From positions 22,707,501-22,771,500 of the forward strand of contig NC_088308.1 of the NCBI RefSeq assembly GCF_910592395.1: 64,000 nucleotides of DNA, read 5' to 3'. This DNA is from Lineus longissimus (Eukaryota; Nemertea; Pilidiophora; Heteronemertea; Lineidae). Numbering within the stretch: position 1 is the first letter of the stretch; each line of letters opens with the position of its first letter. The notes under the pieces were generated by a model that saw only the letters and a program-made list of their open reading frames with translations, was not told where the DNA came from and ran no database searches. The position numbers and the translations under genes are program-made. Below, piece after piece: positions 5,768 through 54,500 of this stretch.

Positions 5768-8700
5768 TTAGACCTCATTCTTCCAAACATGTTTGTTGCA
5801 ATGTTCAACGGCCTGGAAAGATATGAAAAACATTGATTAGAATTTGGGACATTGAAAACATGCCAAGTAGAATTTCTGGAATTGTCTTCTAGAGGACACC
5901 AGAAATCTGGGGAAGTCACAATCTTCAAGAGATTTACACTTTCAAAAACACTTCACACAAATCAAATTTGATATCATATAGAGCGGACCATCATGGATTT
6001 CACGAATCACCTAATACCACCAAAAATACTTTCTGTTTGGAAAGCCAAAATAATTTTTTTTAAATTTCCAAGTGAAATCACACCCCTGTTCAAATACTTA
6101 CATTACATTTCTTAGCATTGTCGAAGTTGGTACACCAATAGGATGGTCCCCATGTGCATTTCTCTGCTCCAAGAAGGTGAGGTTTAGGTGTAGCTACAGC
6201 TGAAAAGTTGAATCAGGAAGTACAATCAGGAATCCAATCACATGGTTCCACTCAAATGGCTGTGGGGGAAGTCAATCAGGGGAGCAATTTTCTTTGAGGT
6301 GACGTGGTCTGGTGTTTGAGGTGTCGTATCATGCCTTTTTCTTGCCATATTCATAATCTGAACACCCTGGCTTATAGATATCCGGCACTCAACTGACTAA
6401 CTTCTTGTGATCCTGGGCAGGCAACTTAACACTACTGATTTCATTGTCCTCCCATCATACCAAGTGACTTAGTTACATGTAGTTGCTGATCAACATCAAG
6501 CAACTTCGAACATTGGAAGCATGTGAAATTGATCAAACATCATACCTTTTTGAGAGATGCAAAGTCCAAGTTCTTTGCAAATCAACGAAGGCGAAAGTTC
6601 CTGAACCATAAGCTTAATTATTATGGGGCCATATTGTTTCACTAAGGCATCACATTCTGACTTGACAGAGGAAGGCAGGTATCCACAGAGCTGGTTCAAA
6701 GCAGCCTCAATCTGGGTCTGAAATAGAAAACAACATTGAAACAATAATCAACTGACAGGGCTTGAAGTTTTCGGCAAAAATCATGTTTCCATATTTCTCG
6801 GCTCATTTCTTTCTTTTTGGAGCAGATAAACCCAACAGTCACACAGCAAGTGTGTTCTGGCTATGCACTAAAGGCGTAAAGGGGATTATGAACTAATGTC
6901 TATGTACCCAAGACACACTCTGGTCGGTTACTATTGCACTGTTTCATATTCAAGATATAACAGTTTTCAATTAAAGCTAAATGCATGAAATAAATCTTTG
7001 CCCAACATCAGCGTTTTTCGGAGATCATTCAGTTGAGCTGTTTGGCATCAGCATTGAGATGGTACCTTACCTCGGTTGAATTTTTCTCCAGCAAAGCATC
7101 AAGATAGCCAGCAGCTAATTGACAGACTTCACATGACACAGCGCTTTGAAATTTCTCGACAGCTACTGAAATAGGATATTTTAAAACCGTACATTATTCA
7201 TGATATTCAGCTCAGTTGCAATTCATAGTATCACCTCAAGATAACCACTCACATCGACTTGTACAGACCCAGCATTACACAAGGCACTTCTCTCCATTCT
7301 CAATTTCACTTGCGGAAGGCAGGCCTCAGTGGCCTGTGCAGTAAATGCATGTAAAAGTCCACGAAAGTCGGCAGGATTCACCCATTTGTGATATGGCTAA
7401 AAATTGGCAAGCATACTATTGTCTCATGATAATTCCATTTTACATTTCACACAAAAACCTAACTTGAATAATAACTCTTCATTTTGTGTGGCCTCATTTT
7501 CTACTGTCCACTTCAACCTCAGTTGAGTTTGTGGCTGTACATGCACAAATGTGACCTGTATACCTGGGAAATTTATGTACAGTTTAATACTTGGGCAACT
7601 ACGACTGTGATAGTGCCAGCCAACCTCTACACATAAAGCCAAGGTAATTCTACAAGGAATAGTCTATGGGTGGTCTGTATTTCATGGTGGTCTATCTTAC
7701 GGGTGGTCTATAGTACCAGGACGAGCTACCTTTATTCACTGGTGGTTTACAAAGTTTTATTCTCTTGCACACAGCATAAGGTTCCAAATCTTCAGTAATA
7801 ATCTTTATCAATAACCATTCATATTTAGCGACAAAGGCATCACACTGGTCCTTGAAAATTGTGGGCAACTTTGAACAAACCTCGTCAAGAGCTGATAAAA
7901 TAACAGCCTGAAAGTGGACAAAACAAAAAGATGAAATTTACCAGATGATCATATCATACCTTTCTTTGCTTGTGTTGTCTTAGTACAAAGCCCAAGCTTA
8001 GTGCAGACGTCCTTCGGAACGATTTGTAGAGCTAGAAGCTTAACAACCATTGGTCCATACTGTTTCACAAAGTCATCGCACTCAACCTTGACTGTTGCGG
8101 GCATGTAGCTGCAGACTTTATCCAAAGCCTCCACAACCATTGCCTGGAACAGAAGGAAGGAAGTCATGACCTCATTCGAAGAGATCAGGTCATAAAACAG
8201 TGAAGAGCTGCTTGATGGTTGCAATAAATTTCAAGAGTTGATGTAAAATATTTTGCCAAAGAGAGAAAAACCACCAAACAACCATCGTGGAGTAATCCAA
8301 TTATAGACAAACAGCCATAACTTTGATTTTTCAACAGGATTTAATAAGATGCTTCTGATTGACTCGGGCATACTCACCTCTGTTGAATTTTCTTTAAGGA
8401 ATTCGTCAATTTTAGTCACGACCAGTTCACAAATTGGACAAAACTCGATTGATTTCACATTAACTTGGAGTTCCTTTACGAGTTTGGGAGCTTGGTAAGA
8501 CTTTGATTTTGGGCAGACATCAATGAACTGAAATAGGAAAATTCCCATTTTTCAAAGTGAAAAGTGCCAGGGGCCATGTGCCGACAAGAATATGGTTACC
8601 ATAGATGACCTCTGTTACCTTGGAAATCAGGCCAAGGTCAAAATCGTTTGACCTGTCTTTCAATTATGATTGGTGAGAAAAATTGCGCAATGTGGACATT

Positions 8701-11700
8701 TTGGCTTCAAATAAGCTTTAGTCTTCACAACTATCATGTTTCATATGTTTCTTCTCTTTGCATTCCAATGAAGGTTGAACTATTCAAACTGGCCCATTAA
8801 CCCATGAAAACAGATGCTGAAATTTTGCAACTACAATATCCTTTACCTGGCAAATATCCTTGGCACTTATTTCATTGGCAAGTGCAAGAACTATCTTATC
8901 TCCATACATGACAAGTAGGCCATCACACTATAATAGAGAATATATAATTATACCACAGTTCATTTTAAACAATATCCGACTAGAAATACTTCATGTCCAA
9001 AGTAAGGCAAGTGAAACTTGTAAAGGAATACCTAACAGTTGATTTGTTCTCTGGTCCTGTTGGTGTAGTTTTGGTTTATAAACATTACTGAATTGCAGAA
9101 GGTTCAACTAGTGTAGCTAATTGGGAAGAATGAAAGTCTCGTGAACTCACAATGGCTGCCTCGGTATCAGGAAGGAAGTTGCACACTCTCTCCAACTCTT
9201 GTCGGATAGCAATCTCAGTATTTTTCTCCTTCAGTAGAGCCTGCAGGTACATGGCCATAGTTTCACACAGGACACAGGCTTCAGTGCCGAAGACGTACTT
9301 AGGAACTGCAAGATCAATTGAAAACGAAATTCATGATTGTATATCTTGTGAAGAAAATAAGAGATATGTCCAATGATTTTTAGCATGCTTTTCAGGTAAC
9401 TATCCGTCAGGACCCCACTAGTAGAGAAGATCTTCCATCAGGCAGCAGAGGAAATATTTACTTGGTTACAACATGTAACAATGTTGAAGGAAGAATATAC
9501 TCAGTAGCGCGTGTTACATTAATCACTTGTGCTAGGAGACTTTGTGCATGAACAAGCTGGGAAGAATTAACAACTAAGTAGCATCCAAGTGAATTGACAC
9601 TATAAATGTACTATGGTGACACAAAGATGCAAGGAAAACAGCAGCTATAACATGCTTCAGTTCAAACAATTCGTTGAGGTTATTCAATGGTATTCAGTGT
9701 TTTTATTGAGTTGGAGGTATTGAAATACTCAACATCGTGGCAAAAACTTGCTAGAGAAGACCAATTTTTGGGTTGTCACGTCCCGTTACCGTATACCAGT
9801 GAATCAATGAAGGCAAACCTGGAGCCGAGGAAGGGCATGTATCCTGACCCAGCAACTTACCTCTATCCGTTGCAGAACACAAACCAAGTGTAGTGCAAAC
9901 CTCTTTTGGTTTGACGTCATTCACGAGGAGGGTGATGATAGCATTGCCATACTGCTTAATAAGATTCTGACACTCGGTCTGAACCGTCTTTGGCAGAAGT
10001 GTGCACACTTTCTCCACTGCAGTGATGATTTCTTGCTGTAAATTTGACATGCAGGACACTTATCATGATATGATTCCTACAGAGTTTGGCAAATAGATTA
10101 CCTGGTAGGCAGGAACATGGCGAGGTTGGAGTTCTGATGTACATGTAGGAGGAAAGTGGAGGAATGGATAGAAGATTGAAAACAAAATGCGTCTACTTAC
10201 CTTCAACCATGTTTCTCTTTGTGCCAAGTTACGGACAGAAGGCTTTGATATTCACAGCATACGCTTCATACTGTGTCGACGTAATTAGGCTGCTGGGGGG
10301 CACCTGCACAAAAGACCTTTTTCCCCTTTAACAGGGCTCTGTGTAAATTTAACAGATGCCCCAACCAGCTAGATTATGTTGACATACTCTAACATTGTAT
10401 AGTGATATTGCTCCCCGTCTTGATTTCATTCCATGACTTTTTTCCTCACCTTATGTCCTCCCTTGTAATGACCAGTATCCACAGTTATTGCTGCGCAGAC
10501 TAGTGACAAGCGTCAGGGACATCACACAAACATCATGCAAAATGATATGAATACACTACCTCGTTTTGAGGGCTTGCACAAACCAATGAGAGTGCAAACT
10601 TTTTCGGCATCCACGTCGTTGACGAGGAGGGAGATGATGACAGCTCCGTACTCTTTGACAAGAGCTTGGCATTCTTTGGCTATAGTTGATGGCAAATAGC
10701 TGCAGCCTTTGTTCACAGCATCAATGATTTCTTGCTGAAAATTGAAAGGCAGGGAGCTGGTTGGAAACAAGGAAAAGGTACAGGTATTGTAAAGTGAAAA
10801 GGATCCGGAGAGGCTAGGATGAATATTTAACCGTTTGTAAAATCCCATATGAGACTTTCAGTGTTTTATGATAGTAAAAGAGCACTAAGTATTGTGTGTA
10901 TCAAGTGCATTGTAACAAAAAACTACACACGTTTCTAAATAATTTTCGTTTCCAGAAGTTTGTTGATGATTTGATTAAACATTTTGTGAAATCCTATTCG
11001 AAATGGGATATTGGCAATAACCTTTTCAACTATGTTGTTACCAACACAACTACACTACATGTAACTTTGATGGCATACTGAAAAATCGGGCAACAGCTAC
11101 ATGCAAGAAGATGGTTTGATACTAAAACATATTGACAGAAACATATCAGTCGAACATGTGATTGAGTAAGATACATGTACTTACCTCAGTTGCATTGTCC
11201 TTTAATTCAGACTCCAATTTGGATATGAGGAATTCACACACGACACATTGAGTGCTGGAACGAACTGTCAACTTCTTGGCGGCTGGAGACATCATTTGCA
11301 TTGGGACCTGGCTCATGGACTGTACCCCATTTGTTTCTTTCAGGAGGGACATTAAAGGCTTCTTCATGCTAGTGCACAGGCCAATAGCTTTACAGAGGGT
11401 CTCAGGGTCCTGGAATACATTACATGTACATAATATAGAACAATTCATTGACCCCTTTACACAACCAGTGATGTTCTCAACCAGTACGTCTAATGCAATG
11501 CTGGGATCACGACATACATGTATTAGCCATGGCCTGGTGTGGGTCTGGGAACTTGGAGCTGAGAGGGTGATATTGGAATTGATCGTCTTTTAACTCTTGT
11601 CTCAATCAATTCAAAGATGGAGCGAAGCGAAGTGACTCAAACGTCAAAAGAAAGGCGGGCCAAGTTTGGCTCAAGATATAAATGACAAAAACACATTGGA

Positions 11701-14700
11701 TAAGGGGAGTCTTTGAAACTTGATAAAACTGTTAGTCCACACAATGCTGGGGAACTCGCATGGTGTCGGCTTCAATTGGAAGTACTCACTATTTCCTGTG
11801 CAAGGAACTGGAAGATGAGTGGTCCATACTGAACAACCAATTTATCACACTGAAATGGAAAACACCAATAAATATTTTTATCACAATCCAGAATGTGGTT
11901 CGGTTCTTCAACCTAATTTACAATGATGCAAAGTGTAGAAGGCTGCCACCATATTGAAGGTGTCTCTATCTCCATTGTGTCTATTAAAAAAAACATGCTC
12001 CCGACAGACAAACACTATCTAGTATAAACATTGACGACAATCATGATGCTGCCTATAGACTCACCTCGTCCTTTATACTTCCAATATTGCCACATAAGTA
12101 TTTCTCAATAAATGTTTCAATCTCTTGCTGGAAAGGAAACAGAACATTTTAATCTTATGAAATTCTGGCAACCATTTCATAATGTTCGCTATGCGGTTAG
12201 GAGAAGGGGACATCAAAACCTGTATGACAGTTTTTTAGGAACCATCGCTACTGACATAGGTTGCATGTGCAAATTGTTGCGAAATGTGGTTTTAAAAGTA
12301 CTACACAACACTACTTGTATGCAGTGCCAACCAAAAATGTCCTTTGCTACTGAATGTGCATCAGTTTTTCTACTGATAGTTCTTCTACTAGTGATAGAAA
12401 TGGTTATGGGGAAGCTAGCATATTTCCGAAGCCAGCGTTACAAATGTAAGAATAAATGAATAAATACAAACAAGCCCATCATAAACGAATAAAGAATAAA
12501 TGAAGCATAAATAAATAAAATGGTATACAACAAACAAGCAGACGTACAGGACATAGAACCTGGAGAAGATTGCAGAACTAAAAGCATGCAGTACAGCCAC
12601 ACGGAACAATACATTCACCAAGTTCTACCTGCTTTGCCTCATCTGTGGTAATCTTTTTTAATTCTGCAACAGCTAACTTGCACATTTCACATTGCTCAGA
12701 CGGACTAGCTTTCTTGTCACCAGAAGTGTCCTTAGGATTGAATACTTTGACCTGTTTGCAAAAGACAGCGAATTGAGATGGATTGTAGTTTTTCTTCAAT
12801 ATCTTCAATGGTTTACATGTAGATTTAATCACATCTTCAGTACAAATCTAACCTTGAAATGCATTTCTCAAAAGTATGCACAAACCAATTGAAACAGTAA
12901 ACTACAGTTTTGTAGAGTTACACTGAATTCATTATTTTCTATTATTCTCTAAGGAGATTGGAAATTCATCCATAAGTCAATTTATGTGGGGCCGACCATC
13001 AAGAGATTAAAAAATGTCCTCTTAACAACATTTGAGAATTGCATTTCAAGACAAGATAAGTGAACCAAAGTGTGACTAACTCACAGGGCTTATGCTGAAA
13101 TGAAACGTATGGACAATCACAATTTGTAGTTGTACCTCAGTTTTGTTGTCCTTGATTTCTGAACGGGCCGCAGCCATGATGAGCTTGCATACTTCACACT
13201 CCTCACCAGCAGCTTTCACAGGAGCCTGAATGAAGGCAATGAACATCCATTACATTTACATAATATTCAACCATAGAAAATGGGGAGTTTTGATGTTTTG
13301 TGAATTAGTCAACGGTTTTATGTATATCAATCACACTTTTATTTAAATTCGCCACCTTTCCAACACTATCCAGTGCTGTAGTACAACCCAGGACTAAGTA
13401 ATAGGGCTTATAAAACATCACGCATATCAAATGAAGCTGAGGAAATATCAATACCAGAGATTTAAAAAAACAAACCACCAAAGCAACAAAAATGTGCCAA
13501 AAATGTGCTAACTTTCTTGGTTCACAGAACACAAAGTCCCCCGTCTTTTTAAAACTTTGTCTCCTCGATATACATGTACATGTACTTATTCATGCAGTCG
13601 GGCTTCTCAAAAGACACAACAGATTGATTGAATATACTTCATCATATAGCATACCAGCAGAACAGGACACTGGTGACCAAATAGACGTAGGTCATATGAT
13701 TAAAAGCAGTCCTGGTGATCACTATTATCTTTATAACCTATTTTGACTTGATTGAGTCAACACACATCAACTCTGAGAACATGCAGAGCCTGCAATTCGA
13801 AGGGCTTAAAATAGATCATGACCAAGCATTCCTCCACAGTAATTCGCCTTCCTTTCTTCTGCATCTGTCATGTGTCTCCGTTTTTAGCCAGGGAAAAGTG
13901 TAAACCAACACCCGTTTGCACATTGGATATTAAACCTGAACCAGTACTTACATTATGTGCAGGTTCAAAGTTCAGAGTGTGTGATACCGCCTGCATAAAA
14001 CCAATCAAATTCAGCTTGTAATGGTTTGAAAGTAACATTATTTTACTGTGCATACTTGTTTTTACCTTGCTCTTTTGGATGTAATATCCAATCCGACGCA
14101 GACATTGCAGGTTGTCGGATGGTAATAAAACAACGCAATCCTGATGCTAATTAAACATTGTACAATGAACAATATACTGTCTACTGATACCAGAAATCCA
14201 TCACAAGCTAAAGCTCGTCTTATTCCTTTCTGCTGATACATACCTTTGATTGTGTCTTAATCAACTGGACATGACCAAGGATGTTGTCCAAAGGCTTTTG
14301 GCCCTGAACCTTGGCTTCAGGCTTGGGTTTGAACCCTTGGGTACAGAATCCCACAGCAGTGCAAATTGTCTTCGGGTCAAGCTCGGCAATAACCATCTGC
14401 ATGATCTGTGGGAAGAACTCATCAACCATGCTCTTGCACTGTAAGGAAAATCTACATACTTGTACTTGAAATACAGGAATTATATCCTTTCAGTACGAAT
14501 GTTGGTACCATCATTCTTACAAGGCTTGTCAATCTCCAGAAGAATAGACAGTCACTTCAAATCTAGTATGTTGTAAGCTTATTTCTAGATGCATATCTGT
14601 TGCCGGCATTGGTGATTTTGTGTCGTATGTATTATAAACCGCAACTCTTGTCATTACTGCATTGCATTGTTAATGAATGAGTGTACTCTATATTGCAATA

Positions 14701-17700
14701 TAAAGCCGATTTTCTCAAAAGCAATTCAGGCAAAGATTAAATTACCTGGGCTGCCAAGCCAGAATCGGGAATGATACTACAAGCCTGTTCCAAATAAGCC
14801 AGAATCTCCTTCTGCAAGAAGAAAGAGAATAACGTTGAAACATGTACATGTTTTCTACTAACTAGTGCTACAGCATGTGATAACACAAGTCAACTTAATA
14901 CAAGTTCTAGTCATTTTAACAGTCTGGAACTTTTCATAAATTTTTCTACTGGTCAAAAACATCTTGGAGATTTCCAACTATCATTTTGACCCAGACTTTC
15001 AAATTTCAAACTTTGCAATACAAAATCAAACCATATCGTTCATGTGCTTGGCATCCTCCAAGACTTTGAAAACAACTTGAAGTAAGGTCAAGTGTTTTCA
15101 ATTGTTACAAGTGTACATGAATGTTATCTGACGAATAGCAGTACATGCACAAACTGAGCAAGATATTTGGCTGAGCCAGACTTCATTACCTCTCCCCCTT
15201 TAACCTTGTTCAGCACTTCTTTCATAGTATCCTCACAGAACTGACAAAGCTCTCCACTCTTTCCATCCTGAAATATTGGCGGATGTTGGGAAAATGGATG
15301 AATATTGGTTTGGATAAGGAAGGACGGGTTATCAGACTGTTCCATGAACCACTTTTCACGATATCATTAAAAAAAATCAGCTACAAGTTACAACCCATTC
15401 TGAATCGTTTTGTATTTTTCCACGTTGGGCAATTAAAGTACTTTTAAGAGGCACCTTTTTAAACCCCCTCCCTTTTTTCAGGTTGGTTGAGTTTTTTTTT
15501 TCTTTTCTGTACTTGTAATGGTTCATAATTGATATGTAATTTGCTCCACTAAATACTTCAGTAATGTTCGATTACAGCATTACTTTGAATCGCTCCACTA
15601 AATACTTGGGTAATTTGTACACACATGTTCGATTACAGCATTACTTTGAATCGCTCCACTAAATACTTGGGTAATTTGTACACACATGTTCGCTTTAACA
15701 GCACTACTTTGAATTGCTCCACTAAATACTTGGGTAATTTATGTTCGCTTACAGCACTACTTTGAATGGCCAATTCCATCTAAGTGGGCCTCCATTAGAA
15801 CACAATCAAAGCCTATATTTGTACTATGTTGGCCGACAAAGGTTGAAATGTCGATTGTGTGGGATCACATGCTGTTCCCAGTCATACACTTAGTATCACA
15901 TGATAAATACTAGATGACACACTTTATATCCTGCTATGACAACTGTTGTAGAATAAGTAATTGAAATTATCGAGGAAGGCATGGTGGAGATCATTCAAAA
16001 AACTTTAGGACACGGTGTCGAGGAAACAGGAGCAAAAAACAACTTCAATCATAAAATATTGTTGAAGCAACTAATTCTGGTTGCATGGATGAACTGATGC
16101 ACATCACACCATGAAAATTCAACGCCACCCAATCGACCAACTAGTTTTTCATATATAAGACAGACAGCTAATCCTTTAATCTGACCTGCCCGATCTATGA
16201 CCCTATCAATCCTGCAGGCCTATTATTGTCATGTGTATGTAACATTGAATAGTGGTCTTTTTAAAGTCATACCGTACCGTAACATACCAAGGTCTAAGCT
16301 TATATATTTCCCGACAATATCCATACAGACACCTTTTTTTACTATTGGGCCTTCAAGCTGTGGTAAATCTCTAAGAGTTGTATCAGATTATCATAGAAAT
16401 GATAACTCTCGCAATATCAGTTATAATTTTTTTAAATCAGTTATTGTTTTTTATAAGAAATCACTGTGAAGAGTGGTTCATGGAAAACTCTGTGTGACAG
16501 GGATGATGATTGATGTTCTATTCTTGTAGTGGATATCCTGAAAATAATAGCAGGGACAGGACATGATGGAGGGCTGAATTGAATACTTTGATCACCATCA
16601 TTCATACCTCAGTAGCGTTGTTTTCCAGGGCAGTGTCGATTTCTTGAAAGACAAACTTGCAGACATCACAATTCTCATCCTAGGATAGGATAGATACCAT
16701 GCAAATCAGTCATGACAGTCATGTGGATGAAAGGAACAAGTTCTTAATCTTAGATTTTTTAGAAATAAAATTTCACAAGACTAGCCTACTTCATTACATT
16801 TACAATACAACTGCTTAATCAAACCTACAAAGCAAACCATATTTCATATGACTTTCTTATACATTATATCATTGAATTCCAAATCATCCTGAAAAGCAAA
16901 TACATAGCCATGATGTCAACTCAGATGACATAAGTAAAGTATACATCAACTAAGTCTATAAAATGAGCAGACTGCAATATCACTATTAGTCATTTGTTAC
17001 TTGCGCCTCTGTCATGGCCTGCTATTGCTTTAATTCGGGTTTGTTGGAAATGTTGCTGCAGTACATAAACTTCTGAGGTAAACTAAATGTACAAGTAGCC
17101 AGACAGTTTGGATTGGATGCAATAAGAATAAATATCTTACCGTGACAGCTGGAAGCTTCTGGTTCTTCCAAACTGTGCTGATGCAGTGCTGGACGGCATT
17201 ACATTCTTTGGCTGCTTTAATGTGACTGCACCAATATGACGGGCCCCACGTACAACGTTCACTGCCAAGTAAGGGAGACGCGGCAGCTGAAGAAAAAGTC
17301 ATGGTACGGCTAGAATCAAGTCAAAACTCCAATATAAATTTATCAATTGCTCAAAAATTAATTATCGTGTATATCTTGAGTTCTGACTGTAATAAACAAA
17401 CGGTTTTGCTGAAACCTGGACTGTCACCTGCCGTTTAGGCCTGCTATTCTATCTGTTCAAGAAGTTGCTGATCATCAACATCAAGCGCATCGCATGCAAA
17501 ATGCAAGAGTCGGTCAAGAGTATAGGGCCTAACAGAGAACAGTAATAATGTCACTTTTCTAGCCAAAACATTCCAGATCTCGTTGGGCTTCCTGCTCCCT
17601 CAACAGCCTAAACACTTTCGAATGTTTTGACCCCTTACTGACATTAAATTCAGTAGCCTGTGCTGCAGACTACTTGTTTTGGGACACCCCGTACTTCGTT

Positions 17701-18588
17701 GGGTATCAGGCTGTTTCGCTACATTGCCAGTTCGCTACAAGTCGTTTCGCTACATGTGGCGGTCGTTTCGCTACATGGTAGGTCGTTTCGCTACATGGTG
17801 GAGTCGTTTCGCTACATGATGGGTACGGTCGTTTCGCTACATGGAGGACGTTTCGCTACATGGGTGGAGTCGTTTCGCTACATGGATGTAGGTCGTTTCG
17901 CTACATGGATGTAGTCATTATTTTTACTCTATTTTACCCTACTATAATTCCCGGTGGTGACTGCCGGTAAAAAAACTTATACGGTTTGATGGCGCGCAAG
18001 GGGTTCTTGTCGTCCTGGCCTGGGTTAGGCCACATAAAAAAAGAGTTGGTGATCGTCCCCGCCCGCCCCTACGAAAAACGCCCGGCCCCATTTTTTGTTA
18101 AAATCCTAAAAAAGTTGGTACAATGTATATTGTTCACTGCTATAGGGTCAGAATTGCACGATTTATTTCTTTATTTTTATTACTTGCTTAGAAATATCTG
18201 TAGGCCATGCACATTTGTCTCTTTTACTTTTTTGAAAAAAAAAAAAATGACTACATCCATGTAGCGAAACGACCTACGATGTAGCGAAACGACCTACATC
18301 CATGTAGCGAAACGACTCCACCCATGTAGCGAAACGTCCTCCATGTAGCGAAACGACCGTACCCATCATGTAGCGAAACGACTCCACCCATGTAGCGAAA
18401 CGACCTACCATGTAGCGAAACGACTTGTAGCGAACTGGCAATGTAGCGAAACGACAGTAAACCCTTCGTTGCATAAATAACAAAATAGATTTTTCAGGAA
18501 AATAGGTTTGCAGCAATTTGGGGTTTAAGTTCCATACGTATTTAGACTTACCCGCAGCCACTAACAACGAAAGAACAAGGAGCTTCAT
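5768..18588 (-). CDS. PSAP: Prosaposin (saposin precursor), 22 exons with four duplicated exon pairs
   Basis: Precursor of lysosomal saposins, small lipid-binding activators of glycosphingolipid hydrolases. Exons (minus, high to low): 18552-18588 (signal peptide start [12 protein letters not shown]), 17141-17286 (saposin-A domain, CTWGPSYWC), 16608-16679, 15190-15267, 14746-14811, 14244-14438, 13136-13225, 12629-12751, 12065-12127, 11790-11849, 11185-11409, 10560-10734, 9861-10035, 9151-9305, 8847-8927, 8378-8527, 7960-8143, 7730-7907, 7071-7165, 6546-6717, 6102-6199 (second saposin-A), 5768-5812 (stop). The saposin-B halves show CxxC, KENSTE-type N-glycosylation sites, CxxLVxxYGP and VCxxLGLC. 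Taking one exon from each pair gives six saposin-B domains between two saposin-A domains, about 702 residues, all phases closing. Vertebrate prosaposin has four saposin-B domains. Two pairs cannot be joined in frame, so splicing must choose. Family assignment is firm; isoform use is inferred. Confidence 0.93.
6102..6199 (-). other. PSAP: Second saposin-A domain exon of prosaposin
   Basis: Encodes [15 protein letters not shown] and ends in KKCN; the next exon (5768-5812) continues [14 protein letters not shown] and stops. Saposin-A domains flank the saposin-B array in prosaposins and are removed in the lysosome; in vertebrates the C-terminal one matters for targeting. Confidence 0.9.
7730..7907 (-). 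other. PSAP: PSAP exon 18, alternative saposin-B C-half (pair with 7960-8143)
   Basis: 59 codons plus one base, phase 0 to 1, starting [15 protein letters not shown] and ending in KLCKPPVNK. It carries the three C-half cysteines. The neighbouring exon 17 has the same phases and domain part. Joining 17 to 18 shifts the frame and meets a stop within eight codons, so the two should be alternatives. This exon is the more diverged one: KYEWLLIK replaces the usual QYGP. Confidence 0.8.
7960..8143 (-). other. PSAP: PSAP exon 17, alternative saposin-B C-half (pair with 7730-7907)
   Basis: 61 codons plus one base, phase 0 to 1, starting [15 protein letters not shown] and containing [12 protein letters not shown] and VCTKLGLC. 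The intron to exon 18 runs from 7959 to 7908, only 52 nt. That is far shorter than every other intron of the gene and close to the spliceosomal minimum. Confidence 0.85.
9861..10035 (-). other. PSAP: PSAP exon 13, alternative saposin-B C-half (pair with 10560-10734)
   Basis: 58 codons plus one base, starting [15 protein letters not shown] and containing [16 protein letters not shown]. It has exactly the length and phases of exon 12 and about half of its residues are identical, including LVNDV. Splicing 12 to 13 would read out of frame to a stop inside exon 13. Confidence 0.85.
10201..10303 (-). pseudogene. Decayed saposin-B N-half exon between PSAP exons 12 and 13
   Basis: A good acceptor (TTTTGTGCAG) and a good donor (GTAAGT) bound 103 nt. 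Its best frame encodes AVNIKAFCP and then a stop. This resembles [10 protein letters not shown] of the intact N-half exon at 8378-8527. The 3' end, AGAGAAACATGGTTGAAG, resembles the end of the exon at 7071-7165, which encodes LEKNSTE. The second cysteine and about eight codons are lost. I read it as a relic of the N-half that once separated two full domains. The similarity is short, so this is moderate evidence. Confidence 0.45.
10560..10734 (-). other. PSAP: PSAP exon 12, alternative saposin-B C-half (pair with 9861-10035)
   Basis: 58 codons plus one base, starting [15 protein letters not shown] and ending [10 protein letters not shown]. It follows the N-half exon at 11185-11409 (ends KDNATE) in phase 0 and leaves phase 1, matching the entry phase of exon 14 at 9305. 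Confidence 0.85.
12629..12751 (-). other. PSAP: PSAP exon 8, saposin-B N-half (pair with 13136-13225)
   Basis: 41 codons, phase 0 to 0, containing [17 protein letters not shown] and ending DEAKQ. It lacks the Asn-x-Thr/Ser of the other N-halves. Exon 7 (13136-13225: [16 protein letters not shown], ends DNKTE) is also a phase 0-0 N-half, and no C-half lies between them. Confidence 0.8.
15190..15267 (-). other. PSAP: PSAP exon 4, saposin-B N-half (pair with 16608-16679)
   Basis: 26 codons, phase 0 to 0, [19 protein letters not shown] ending KGGE. Exon 3 (16608-16679: [17 protein letters not shown], ends NNATE) is also a phase 0-0 N-half. Only one C-half follows (14746-14811 plus 14244-14438), and no C-half was found in the 1340-bp intron between them. 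Confidence 0.8.
15541..15772. repeat. Short tandem array, about 60-bp unit, four copies, in PSAP intron 3
   Basis: The words GCTCCACTAAATACTT and CACTACTTTGAAT or CATTACTTTGAAT recur at spacings of about 55-64 bp. The middle two copies are nearly identical; the outer ones have small deletions. It lies in the intron between the two N-half exons 16608-16679 and 15190-15267. Confidence 0.85.
17714..18456. mobile_element. Foldback/MITE-like element with repeat-built inverted arms, in PSAP intron 1
   Basis: The left arm (about 17714-17922) and right arm (about 18247-18456) are inverted copies of each other over about 205 bp. Each arm is made of ten copies of CGTTTCGCTACATGG or its complement, including one shortened copy (GTTCGCTACA) at the matching second position from each outer end. 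The 325-bp centre has no coding capacity and holds an A13 run. Long inverted repeats with internal subrepeats and no transposase are typical of non-autonomous foldback-type DNA elements. No clear target-site duplication was found, so the exact ends are uncertain. Confidence 0.85.
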
Positions 18589-24081: not shown

Positions 24082-25400
24082 ATGACTGTTGTATGTCACT
24101 TGAACAAATTCAGATTGGAAGGAGCCATTCTCGAGTACACTCCAGACACAATCATCTTGACCCTCAATGTATTGTCATTGCTAAGCGCGCCTAATAGGGG
24201 CAGAGGTAACGGAGGCAATACCACTGGAAGTTCAGTATGGGCACAATCGATCGACTTCATCTCTCCCCGCGCTGCAATCAAGGACACTCTTGGGACTGAC
24301 AAGTGCGGTCCTAGAGGTGTCCCGATTAGAGAAGTCAATGTCAAATTTAATAGCAACTACAACTTCGGGACTAAAACTAGTGTTCTTGATAGAGAGGTGT
24401 TTGTTGAGGTAGGTTCCACTGTCAAAAAGTCTTACCGCAATTACTTGGAGGCAGGTCTGCGTTCCAGTCCAACCGTCTGTGACCGTCATCAAAAGTTTTA
24501 AAATCTTGTCCAAGACATGAAGAAATAATAAAAATGATAGATCTGCGAGGTTATTTGCATGCAAATACAGCTAAAGGGCCCCGCCCTGTGTCTTATGTAA
24601 TTGGCAATACCAAAAATCTATTCATGCAAAAGGCCTAAAAACATGCTCAATTTCATAGGCAACAGTAAAGCAACCTAGCGGTAGGAACTGGAACTGAGAG
24701 TTTTGGACCAAGTTTTCAGTTTCATTTTCTGCCGCGAAACAGCGCCACTTGCTCAAATTACGATATTTCGTAGGCAACAGTAATGCAACCTAGCGGTAGG
24801 AATTAGAACTGAGAGTTTTGGACGAAGATTTCAGTTCTCAGTTTTGCCGCGAGACAGCGCCACTGTCGCCTAAGCCAATTTCATACCGATTGGTTTTCAT
24901 GCCTTTGGAAAGTAATCAGCATCAAACTAAGGGCATTTGATAGATAATGACTTGCTTTAGTTGTCAATCAGGTTCAGCACAGCCACATACCAACTTCCCA
25001 CACAAACGACAGTAAATATGATTCTCTGATGGGATCAACGAGGGTGGACGCTTGTTCGGGGTACCTAATGGCTCTATTGATCTTGTCAGTTGTTCAATAG
25101 GAGGCATTCCCTGTACCCTCCGATTAAATCTCGGTGCAGTCACTGATCTTCAAACCTTTAGATTGAACAACACAAGTATTTCAAATCAACTTACACCTAC
25201 ATTCAATTGGAACAAGAAGCTGTATAAAAGGGTAAATTTTTGGAGGCCCAGTTTCTTTTGCAAGTGGGGGAAGAAATTTAAGGAAACAATTACTTTACAT
25301 GGGGTAGGTAGTTGGACTAGCTCTGCTGACTTTGACAGTTGAGCTAAAAATCATCCGTAGTCCACAGCCTTTCATGGAATATCTAAATAAAATGCCAACA
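24082..25400. other. Unassigned region with a 139-codon open frame and a local duplication
   Basis: A plus-strand open frame at 24082-24501 (139 codons, starts MTVVCHLNKF) and another at 25052-25342 (96 codons, starts MFGVPNGSID) match no family I know. Long frames also run antisense across the first. Between them lie two copies of a roughly 110-bp sequence. It could be a remnant of an uncharacterised mobile element; the evidence is weak. Confidence 0.25.
24653..24868. repeat. Two-copy tandem duplication, unit about 110-117 bp
   Basis: Copies at about 24653-24755 and 24769-24868 share GGCAACAGTAA, GCAACCTAGCGGTAGGAA, ACTGAGAGTTTTGGAC and CAGCGCCACT in order, with scattered substitutions. An old tandem duplication. 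Confidence 0.8.
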
Positions 25401-26534: not shown

Positions 26535-27405
26535 ATGACAGTGAAGCATGCCAAGTGGGTCAATGGCATACACCGTAATGGCACCATGACAAAGCGTGCC
26601 ACGTGGGTCAATGGCATACACCGTAATGGCACCATGACAAAGCGTGCCACGTGGGTCAATGGCATACACCGTAATGGCACCATGACAAAGCGTGCCACGT
26701 GGGTCAATGGCATACACCGTAATGGCACCATGACAAAGCGTGCCACGTGGGTCAATGGCATACACCGTAATGGCACCATGACAAAGCGTGCCACGTGGGT
26801 CAATGGCATACACCGTAATGGCACCATGACAAAGCGTGCCACGTGGGTCAATGGCATACACCGTAATGGCACCATGACAAAGCGTGCCACGTGGGTCAAT
26901 GGCATACACCGTAATGGCACCATGACAAAGCGTGCCACGTGGGTCAATGGCATACACCGTAATGGCACCATGACAAAGCGTGCCACGTGGGTCAATGGCA
27001 TACACCGTAATGGCACCATGACAAAGCGTGCCACGTGGGTCAATGGCATACACCGTAATGGCACCATGACAAAGCGTGCCACGTGGGTCAATGGCATACA
27101 CCGTAATGGCACCATGACAAAGCGTGCCACGTGGGTCAATGGCATACACCGTAATGGCACCATGACAAAGCGTGCCACGTGGGTCAATGGCATACACCGT
27201 AATGGCACCATGACAAAGCGTGCCACGTGGGTCAATGACATACACCGTAATGGCACCATGACAAAGCGTGCCACGTGGGTCAATGACATACACCGTAATG
27301 GCACCATGACAAAGCGTGCCACGTGGGTCAATGACATACACCGTAATGGCACCATGACAAAGCGTGCCACGTGGGTCAATGACATACACTGTAATGGCAT
27401 CTTTT
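26535..27405. repeat. 48-bp minisatellite, about 18 near-identical copies
   Basis: The unit reads through CATGACAAAGCGTGCC, ACGTGGGTCAATGGCATA and CACCGTAATGGCAC. The first copy is degenerate (CATGCCAAGTGGG). The next 17 all keep GCCACGTGGGTCAAT. The last four copies share one variant, AATGACATA instead of AATGGCATA. Because 48 is a multiple of three, the array is open for about 300 codons on both strands, with a 16-residue period (TKRATWVNGIHRNGTM on plus). This is a by-product of the period and not evidence of a gene. Each intact copy has a perfect CACGTG E-box next to GGGTCA. Confidence 0.97.
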
Positions 27406-51500: not shown

Positions 51501-54500
51501 TACAATATAAATGCTGTTCTTAAGAGTCAATGGAAGTTACGGTAACATCGAAGGAGGCAAGATTCAAGATGCACTTGTTGACTTCACCGGCGGAATCTCG
51601 GAAGTCTACAATCTAACCGATAAGCAGAACCTACCGAAGGACCTGTTCAGGATAATCCAAAAGAGTGTCAAGGCAAAGTCTATGCAGGGAGCTTCCATAT
51701 CTGTAAGTCATTAATATTGAGGGGCCATGCATCTGTTAATCTCTTTGAGTACGCAATCGTCAACGATACAAGATTTTACAAATCAACATTTTCTTTTCCA
51801 TCATCTAGAGTGAAGTATCATTCGAACTTAGCATTCCTAACTCAATAGATGGTAGTTAAAACTTCGAACAGCTTCTAATCGAGACGCAGTTCGTTCTGAA
51901 ACGACTGGTGCCCAGATCATGACTCTTCAGGCACGACACAACTTCTAGAATAAAATTCTTTCCTTTAAGATAGTCTCATGTTGAAAATTTGCAGGCGAGC
52001 CAAAGAGAACGGGAAGCCAGTTTGACGAACGGACTCTTCAAGGGGCACGCTTACAGTGTTATTGATGTCAGACAGGTAGGGTGCCAAGCACAAGATATCG
52101 GTCACTGAGTTCAAGACCACTTTACCGCCATGAAACTTGGTGATTATTGTATAATATATTCATAATCAAAAAGAGAGAAAGTTACACAGGTTGAGAATAT
52201 AATCAGAGATGCTGAGCTTTGAATATGCTTATACGAACTCTCAGAAAATGTCAGCAGCTGATATTCTAGTTCACTTCGAGATAGAACCGGACTACTATTC
52301 TATTCAAGGGCATTGGAAATATGTTTGTATGTCTTTAACTTGGTATTGCAGATCAGGACACTGGATGGTCGGTCTCACAACCTTATGCAGCTGAGAAATC
52401 CTTGGGGCCATGGAGAGTGGAATGGGGATTGGTCAGATAAGTACGTCATCATAAAGATTTGATTTATTTCAAGAGGAGGGTTTTCTACGAATTGTATTGT
52501 TAATTCGTACTCCTCCTGTCATGACTGTATGACCTAAAGGGATTACTTCTTCATTGAAAGTCACTTGAACCAGTGAAATAAACTGCTCAGAAGGTGAAGG
52601 GGCCTGGTGATTTCAAGTCATTGGGGGAGATTGGGGTTTTACATTGACCACTACCTTACGCATTCTCAAAAAGAATTCTCCACTAGATTTGTAACAGTAT
52701 TTTATTATCATATTTCGTGATGCGTGTTTGTAAATATTCTAGATCTCCTGTATGGAATCAGGTTTCCGACAGTGAGAAACGAGGCATAGATTTCGCGAGG
52801 GCAGATGATGGAGTGTTCTGGATGTCATTCGAGGATTGGCTCGCGAACTACACAGAATTTCAAATATGCCATCTCTCCCCAGATTCCTTGACAAGCGACT
52901 CGGTAAGGAGTTTGACATGTACCTCTATCCAAGTTGGAATTCACAGGACTGAGCTCCACACAGGTTCTGTTGGGGCGTCTTTCTTCCGCACATTAACTCA
53001 AGTATGCGTGTCACTCTGTCTGTATATCAGTTGCCATTTTTCAATCAGTAAAGGTCCGTAGTCAAGGGTTCATGACCAAAAAGCAGCCTGCAAGGTTTCA
53101 ACCCCGCCTATTTGTGTCAGAAAAAGAGCAAGAGCTGTTGGCATGATCGTTATGTCGATGGCTTTTCTTCCTTCCAGGCCAAGACGAAGTGGCAGTGTGT
53201 TCGTCATGATGGTGAATGGGTACATGGGGTCAGCGCTGGTGGAAGCGGCAACCCACCTTACCAAAGTAGGCTATGTGCTCAGATTGGCTGATCTATTTTG
53301 CCAAAATATCCCACTACCTTCTTTCAAAATATATAAGCATGCCGAGCATTTTCAAGTATTTTTTACGATGTCCGAGAGGCATATTTCGCTCGCCGTGTAC
53401 ATTTTTACTAATACGCAGTTCAATAGCTTCTTGACCAGTAAGGTTGTTACATCGACATCTTTCCTTAAATTAACGTCTTCCCTTTTTCTCTAAAGCGCTC
53501 TACTGGAGTAACCCTCAGTACAGCGTTCATTTACAAGATGCGAACAAGGATGACGACAGTGATGACTGTACCATGATCATTTCCCTGATGGAGAGAGACA
53601 ACCGGGCAAACAGTGTCGCCACCGCCATGGATATCTATAAGGTAGGAGCTGTTGATTAGCCAACTTCAGAATTATTCCTTATACTCCGAGTAAGATGAAG
53701 TTTTGTCAGGCGTATGGATTTAAAAGTCCATTTACATGGCCATGAATTTGCTGAGAGAGATATTAGTACAGTATTTCGTATTAATTTGTGGATAGCATTT
53801 GCCTACCACAACGGTACACCGCAGTAGCGATGTTAAAAGGCTTTTGGGCCAAAACAAATCTTATTTGATGTTAGCCGAATGAAGCAGCATGGAATAACAA
53901 CGCAGATCCTTGTGCTTAACGTTAACGTAAACAACCTTTTCAGCTCAAGCAAGGTATGCCTGTTCTCCTGACTGGCGAAAACTATGAGAAGAAGGCATTG
54001 CGTTACTTGAAGAATACTGGGTCGTATTCCTTCTACCGAGAAGTTACCATGCGTTTCGTCACGGATCCTGGCGTCTACGTCATTGTGCCGAGCACCTTTA
54101 AGCCCGGCGAAGAGAAAAAGTTCATGTTTAGGATATTCACTGAAAAACCTATTTCTTCTGCGTAAGTGTTGGATAACATGATCATGTCGACCCCCTATCC
54201 AGATTTATATTGCTGTGCTCAGAAGTGTGTCTGGGATAGCCTGCAACACGAATATGCGACGACTGACATAACATTTTACATTCTGCGATATATTTCATAA
54301 TCAGTATCAGATCAATCAGAGTGGGGAAAAATACATGTACTTCACAGCCAAGAATTTTCTGGCAGCCGAGCATACCTTTTAATCCATCGTAGCAAAGCAA
54401 ACGCTCTTAGAAATGAAGGGTTTTTTCCCAACACAAATATGCGCCCCGTACGCCTCAGGGGATGAAAAAACCTACTAGGTATTTCAGTATCTCGAAAACC

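Follow-up and report, generated by a model that had tools for sequence, protein, structure and literature searches.

Four pairs of putative mutually exclusive half-domain exons in the prosaposin gene of Lineus longissimus

The analyzed stretch of Lineus longissimus DNA (64,000 nucleotides (nt), positions 22,707,501 to 22,771,500 of NC_088308.1; hereafter, the window) contains the prosaposin gene of this ribbon worm. The encoded protein consists of a SapA domain, six SapB domains (D1–D6), and a second SapA domain. In D1, D2, D3, and D5, one part of the SapB domain is encoded twice, by two neighboring exons (pairs 3a/3b, 6a/6b, 10a/10b, and 14a/14b), and the arrangement of these exons suggests that they are probably mutually exclusive, with each mRNA taking one member per pair. 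The case for exclusive splicing is strongest for pairs 10 and 14, which encode the C-terminal parts (C-halves) of D3 and D5, and weaker for pairs 3 and 6, which encode the N-terminal parts (N-halves) of D1 and D2.

Four pairs of exons for the same domain parts

All eight exons were located on the minus strand with AG/GT boundaries, exactly where the initial annotation of this DNA had placed them (window coordinates are used throughout). The N-half of D1 is encoded by exon 3a (16608–16679) or 3b (15190–15267), and the N-half of D2 by exon 6a (13136–13225) or 6b (12629–12751). The C-half of D3 is encoded by exon 10a (10560–10734) or 10b (9861–10035), and the C-half of D5 by exon 14a (7960–8143) or 14b (7730–7907). 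As had been proposed, the two members of a pair always share their entry and exit phases, which are 0/0 in pairs 3 and 6 and 0/1 in pairs 10 and 14; the lengths of the members are 72/78, 90/123, 175/175, and 184/178 nt. In the human atlas of mutually exclusive exons, such exons are recognized as adjacent and of the same phase, with a length difference that is a multiple of three and no larger than 60 nt (PMC5740500), and all four pairs have these properties. Each of the 16 combinations with one member per pair gives a single open frame of 700–715 residues, with 702 residues for the all-a protein (3a, 6a, 10a, and 14a), which bears out the prediction that every such choice can be translated.

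The coding character of the exons was examined with profiles derived from 174 homologues (859 N-halves and 896 C-halves). Scanning the entire window in six-frame segments identified eight N-halves and 12 pieces that form eight C-halves, all of them in the prosaposin gene, and the highest scores elsewhere in the window were 7.2 bits (N) and 8.1 bits (C), compared with top scores of 9.6 bits (N) and 7.4 bits (C) in shuffled sequence. The members of the pairs scored 36.4 (3a) versus 13.8 bits (3b), 30.9 (6a) versus 15.7 bits (6b), 74.2 (10b) versus 67.4 bits (10a), and 55.2 (14b) versus 68.7 bits (14a). For each of the eight alternative domains, both SapB regions were recognized at E ≤ 0.001. In codon usage all eight exons surpassed every stop-free intronic window of equal length (from 0/133 up to 0/1975 windows scoring as high), in a model that was trained on the other exons of the same gene, so that amino-acid composition contributes to the result. 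The order of halves along the gene is N N C / N N C / N C C / N C / N C C / N C, and a message can therefore contain at most six complete domains, each with one N-half beside one C-half. The initial annotation held that only one partner half exists for each pair, and no extra half was detected: in the profile scan of both strands of the window none stood out between pair members, although such a scan may overlook a C-half divided by introns, as the 6.7 bits of the genuine exon 7 by itself show, and a search of the gaps for the cysteine pattern returned only unconvincing open segments.

The remaining exons, also on the minus strand, complete the domains. The initial annotation modeled 22 coding exons from 18588 to 5768, with AG/GT at all internal sites. 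Exon 1 (18552–18588) carries the start codon and an N-terminus that is hydrophobic as judged by eye, and exon 2 (17141–17286) encodes the first SapA domain. The C-half of D1 is divided between exon 4 (14746–14811) and exon 5 (14244–14438), the latter also encoding a linker. The C-half of D2 begins with exons 7 (12065–12127) and 8 (11790–11849) and D2 ends in exon 9 (11185–11409), which continues through a linker into the N-half of D3. D4 is spread over exon 11 (9151–9305; its N-half and the beginning of its C-half), exon 12 (8847–8927; the middle of the C-half), and exon 13 (8378–8527), which contains the end of D4, a linker, and the N-half of D5. The halves of D6 are encoded by exons 15 (7071–7165) and 16 (6546–6717), and the second SapA domain by exons 17 (6102–6199) and 18 (5768–5812), the latter containing its end and the stop codon. 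In the all-a protein, the Pfam SapA profile matched two stretches (105.9 bits), one at each end, and the SapB_1 and SapB_2 profiles matched six and five stretches, respectively, above the Pfam threshold. A genome-wide search with the SapB_2 profile, in which 20 candidates were scored, gave six matches, all inside this gene, and the genome thus showed no further prosaposin whose C-half exons are unsplit.

Repeats are present within the gene. Intron 1 harbors a fold-back element (17713–18452), whose 110-nt arms (17797–17906 and 18279–18388) are 100% complementary and consist of repeats of GTCGTTTCGCTACATGG, with additional complementary 44-nt arms. Between exons 3a and 3b there is a 61-bp tandem repeat of ∼2.9 copies (15543–15740).

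One of the combinations is present in NCBI. The computed model prosaposin-like isoform X3 [Lineus longissimus] could be rebuilt from exons of the window with identity at 727/727 residues, and it contains exon 1 and one member of each pair (3b, 6b, 10a, and 14a), so that the combinatorial choice suggested by the initial annotation is represented by this one combination. X3 also includes a 39-nt in-frame microexon, 5x (13952–13990), between exons 5 and 6, which encodes part of the D1–D2 linker, is absent from the initial exon model and lacks coding-like codon usage (its score is reached by 3649 of 4309 intronic windows), and its acceptor of exon 15 is shifted 3 nt further into the exon. The 90% identity cluster to which X3 belongs has seven member sequences, of which X3 was examined. 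The 16 precursors initially predicted thus stand as 16 open frames, and the number could possibly reach 64 if microexon 5x and the shifted exon 15 acceptor are optional.

In sequence searches, D1, D3, and D6 of X3 matched structures of human or mouse saposins A, C, and D. A structure model of X3 (mean predicted local distance difference test score (pLDDT) 65.7, predicted template modeling score (pTM) 0.27) contains six saposin domains of four helices each. In D1, D3, D5, and D6, helix 2 begins exactly at the border between N-half and C-half exons, and in D2 this border lies three residues inside helix 2. An N-half exon therefore corresponds to helix 1 and the following loop, and a C-half exon to the remaining helices; pair members do encode the same part of a domain, as initially described, but the division is between helix 1 and the other helices rather than between two halves. 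When the whole X3 model, a long multi-domain query, was used in a fold comparison, there were no matches at E ≤ 0.001; the best match was human saposin D (E 0.015, probability 1.00), and the template modeling (TM) scores by target of the top five saposin D chains were 0.84–0.88.

Constraints on joint inclusion and consequences of the choice

Inclusion of one member per pair would provide D1, D2, D3, and D5 with one helix 1 piece and one set of remaining helices each, with the six cysteines of the fold. For pairs 10 and 14, other outcomes shift the reading frame: with both members of pair 10 a stop is reached after 402 residues and with neither after 342 residues, and the corresponding values for pair 14 are 573 and 505 residues. 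Such messages would encode truncated chains, and we infer that they would be destroyed. Exons 14a and 14b are separated by a GT...AG interval of only 52 nt (7908–7959), whereas the 21 other gaps between exons of the gene measure 215–1340 nt. Myosin introns of the same genome were estimated at 113 nt or more (n = 38; 88 profile matches, of which 38 neighboring pairs were kept after a profile-overlap filter that removed a raw gap of 74 nt at 18540169 to 18540244 on C1, the contig that contains the window, between overlapping matches, one of them with internal stops). If the 52-nt interval were retained, a stop would be encountered at most four residues into it (the reading ends KKGMI). By analogy with known cases, the 14a–14b junction would be physically hard to splice: ∼50 nt is the proposed steric limit between donor and branch point in PMC7969005, and the human atlas regards distances below 50 nt as a cause of steric interference, with 9% of exclusive clusters below this value and 60% frame-incompatible due to lengths not divisible by three (PMC5740500).

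For pairs 3 and 6, joint inclusion and joint skipping both leave the frame open (728 and 678 residues for pair 3, 743 and 672 residues for pair 6). Since neither frame nor spacing would safeguard these pairs, an exclusive choice there would have to depend on regulation, and a protein with both members would have a pair of cysteines without partners.

The likely effect of the choice would be the tuning of individual saposins and not the creation of new domains. Near the end of helix 1, N-glycosylation sequons are present in 3a (NAT) and 6a (NKT) and absent from 3b and 6b. A sequon at this place is usual, as it was found in 47 of 71 N-half windows of 13 homologues, and it is absent from the first domains of Tubulanus, Owenia, Capitella, Gigantopelta, Dimorphilus, and Saccostrea. 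In D1 and D2, splicing would thus add or remove the usual sequon. In D5, the choice would shift the domain from about equal similarity to saposins C and D with exon 14a (best matches in the PDB 59.0 bits for saposin C and 62.5 bits for saposin D) to a more saposin D-like form with exon 14b (67.1 bits for saposin D versus 53.8 bits for saposin C). D3 resembles saposin C with either member of pair 10 (72.3 bits with 10b; 67.0 bits with 10a, its best match within X3), and the choice there is therefore subtler.

Origin of the pairs and alternative explanations

The divergence between members differs greatly among the pairs. Exons 10a and 10b are identical at 33/58 residues, with nonsynonymous (dN) and synonymous (dS) divergence of 0.36 and 1.70, and they are sisters in the C-half tree with support of 90/86. 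They appear to have arisen by tandem duplication and to have been maintained under constraint, and by these measures the other three pairs are not clearly of this kind. The corresponding values are 20/59 identical residues, dN 0.63, and dS 2.82 for 14a/14b; 10/30, dN 0.78, and dS 1.68 for 6a/6b; and 4/22 aligned residues, dN 1.09, and dS 1.12 for 3a/3b. In these three pairs the members are no closer to each other than to other halves. Exon 3b is nearest to the first domains of Owenia and Capitella, and 3a to late domains. In the C-half tree, which is based on 53 columns with a bootstrap that had not settled and which we relied on solely for 10a/10b and as a caution on 14a/14b, 14a lies nearer to saposin C-like and 14b nearer to saposin D-like rows. 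Pairs 3, 6, and 14 may have originated by loss of the inner half between two neighboring domains. Such an origin would alter only the history of the pairs, and the present reading, in which one member completes the domain, is unaffected.

Several observations weigh against mutually exclusive splicing. The only identified combination, X3, comes from a computed model, and no database records containing 3a, 6a, 10b, or 14b were found; a search with a 270-residue protein piece that included 10b and 14b gave a single match, a frog prosaposin with 27% identity, and none from a ribbon worm. For pairs 3 and 6, joint inclusion is permitted by both frame and spacing. The likeness of 3a to 3b is no greater than that between unrelated N-halves, with a dN/dS of ∼1, exons 14a and 14b are not sisters in the weakly supported tree, and the dS values are near saturation. 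The domain with 6b falls, as the only one of the eight, below the curated Pfam SapB_1 cut-off (20.6 versus 25.2 bits). Competing base-pairing between introns gave no clear signal (z from −2.54 to +0.52 for 12 intron pairs, with whole-intron duplex energies compared with 15 mononucleotide shuffles per pair, or 11 for the last pair). Finally, in four of five species whose isoforms were compared, whole segments were included or skipped and not swapped.

Some of these points would also fit an explanation in which one member of each pair is constitutive, whereas its counterpart is a relic that is hardly used or not used at all and could, for instance, be left from a half-deleted saposin domain. Only one combination is known from database proteins, 3a resembles late-type domains and 3b the first domains of other animals, and 14a and 14b belong to different groups of the tree, so that three of the four pairs may be what remains of merged domains and not duplicates. 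However, splice sites, reading frame, and cysteines are preserved in all eight exons, as is a coding-like codon usage; the exons that X3 does not use are better or equal saposin matches in three pairs (3a, 6a, and 10b); and the NCBI cluster holds at least seven protein versions. We therefore consider relic exons unlikely and expect that 3a, 6a, 10b, and 14b would be spliced into some of the messages.

A further explanation accepts exclusivity for pairs 10 and 14 and treats the members of pairs 3 and 6 as ordinary optional exons, whose joint inclusion would place two helix 1 pieces before one set of helices. It is consistent with the four N-half exons all being of phase 0/0 and multiples of three in length, and with the open frames of the both-in and both-out versions. 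X3, however, contains just one member of each pair, and an additional CxxC pair would presumably find no partners in the six-cysteine fold. We regard this explanation as quite unlikely.

The proposal that each copy belongs to a complete domain of its own, the missing halves having been overlooked, would draw on the background-level scores that an intron-split C-half such as exon 7 can have and on the 1340-nt gap between 3a and 3b. It appears highly improbable: no such half stands out on either strand, the gaps lack a convincing cysteine pattern, and the 52 nt that separate 14a from 14b are too few to accommodate one. Least credible of all is an assembly artefact in which two alleles were placed in tandem, as nothing was found in its favor beyond the circumstance that five haplotypic duplications were removed from the published assembly (PMC8593623), and allelic duplication was rejected because the members of a pair are identical at just 18–57% of aligned residues, much less than alleles would be.

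Relation to known systems and other features of the window

Both vertebrate prosaposin (PSAP; saposins A–D) and the L. longissimus protein have a SapA domain at each end of tandem SapB domains, but the former contains four SapB domains, and the latter six, together with the four pairs of alternative half-domain exons. Saposins decide which sphingolipids are reached by lysosomal enzymes, and the four saposins of vertebrates are released from one precursor in fixed proportion. If mutually exclusive splicing of the L. longissimus exons is correct, saposins that are exchangeable by splicing would uncouple this fixed set and let the animal tune single saposins, including their N-glycan. Alternative splicing of mammalian prosaposin mainly concerns one tiny exon 8. 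That the mammalian gene is alternatively spliced is also indicated by titles cited in PMC12864279, and loss of the glycosylation site of human saposin B is described as a disease allele in PMC10315378.

Compared with mutually exclusive exons in general, as described in the human atlas (PMC5740500) and in the work on OGDH exons 4a/4b (PMC7969005), the L. longissimus pairs are likewise adjacent, of similar length, and of the same phase. They also share with them the frame shift upon joint inclusion (pairs 10 and 14) and a donor near the branch point (pair 14). Unlike the cases in these sources, pairs 3 and 6 lack both safeguards, and in three of the four pairs divergence is too great for a tandem duplication to be demonstrated. 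Prosaposin and exclusive exons are each well known, and it is their combination that appears new, with several isoforms already held by NCBI; no description of mutually exclusive exons in a prosaposin was found among the titles and beginnings of abstracts listed from an open-license library.

A parallel was found in another phylum. In Ciona intestinalis, isoforms X2, X7, and X10 of LOC100176110 are identical outside short swapped blocks inside saposin domains. X7 and X2 agree in 1078 of 1148 columns, and all 70 differences fall into three blocks of 19, 41, and 18 columns. X10 follows X2 in two of the three choices and X7 in the third, with a difference at a fourth place, so the choices in these isoforms are not all linked. 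The swapped blocks of Ciona are middle pieces of domains, whereas in L. longissimus helix 1 or the rest is exchanged. The Ciona comparison was made from protein records alone, which are computed models and in which exon borders are not seen. Glandiceps, Ptychodera, Clytia, and Haliotis cracherodii, with two records each, resemble L. longissimus in having many SapB domains and isoform variation, but without swaps, as whole segments of 87 to 97 residues are present or absent. Vertebrate isoform sets and Tubulanus records were left out of this comparison.

The swaps between Ciona isoforms suggest that saposins may repeatedly have evolved by this route, unnoticed within annotation. More tentatively, it is possible, though we would not call it probable, that the L. 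longissimus gene realizes a combinatorial saposin code, in which independent choice at four saposins would yield dozens of precursors and tissues would set their sphingolipid activators; splicing would then switch the glycosylation of D1 and D2 and shift D5 toward the saposin D type, and Ciona would have arrived at the same solution separately, with other exon borders.

Other features were noted outside the prosaposin gene. A 115-bp unit is repeated 1.9 times with 90% matches at 24650–24864, and a 48-bp minisatellite occupies 26544–27399 (17.8 copies, 99% matches); because 48 is divisible by three, it is traversed by long open frames on either strand. On the plus strand, an exon at 52687–53061 encodes the end of a calpain protease domain (PF00648, 39.3 bits) and thus marks another gene. 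Outside the window, C1:1809808-1809903 and 1811021-1811119 match the same stretch of the myosin head profile (positions 121–152 and 120–152), and these neighboring matches are possibly alternative exons of a muscle myosin gene.

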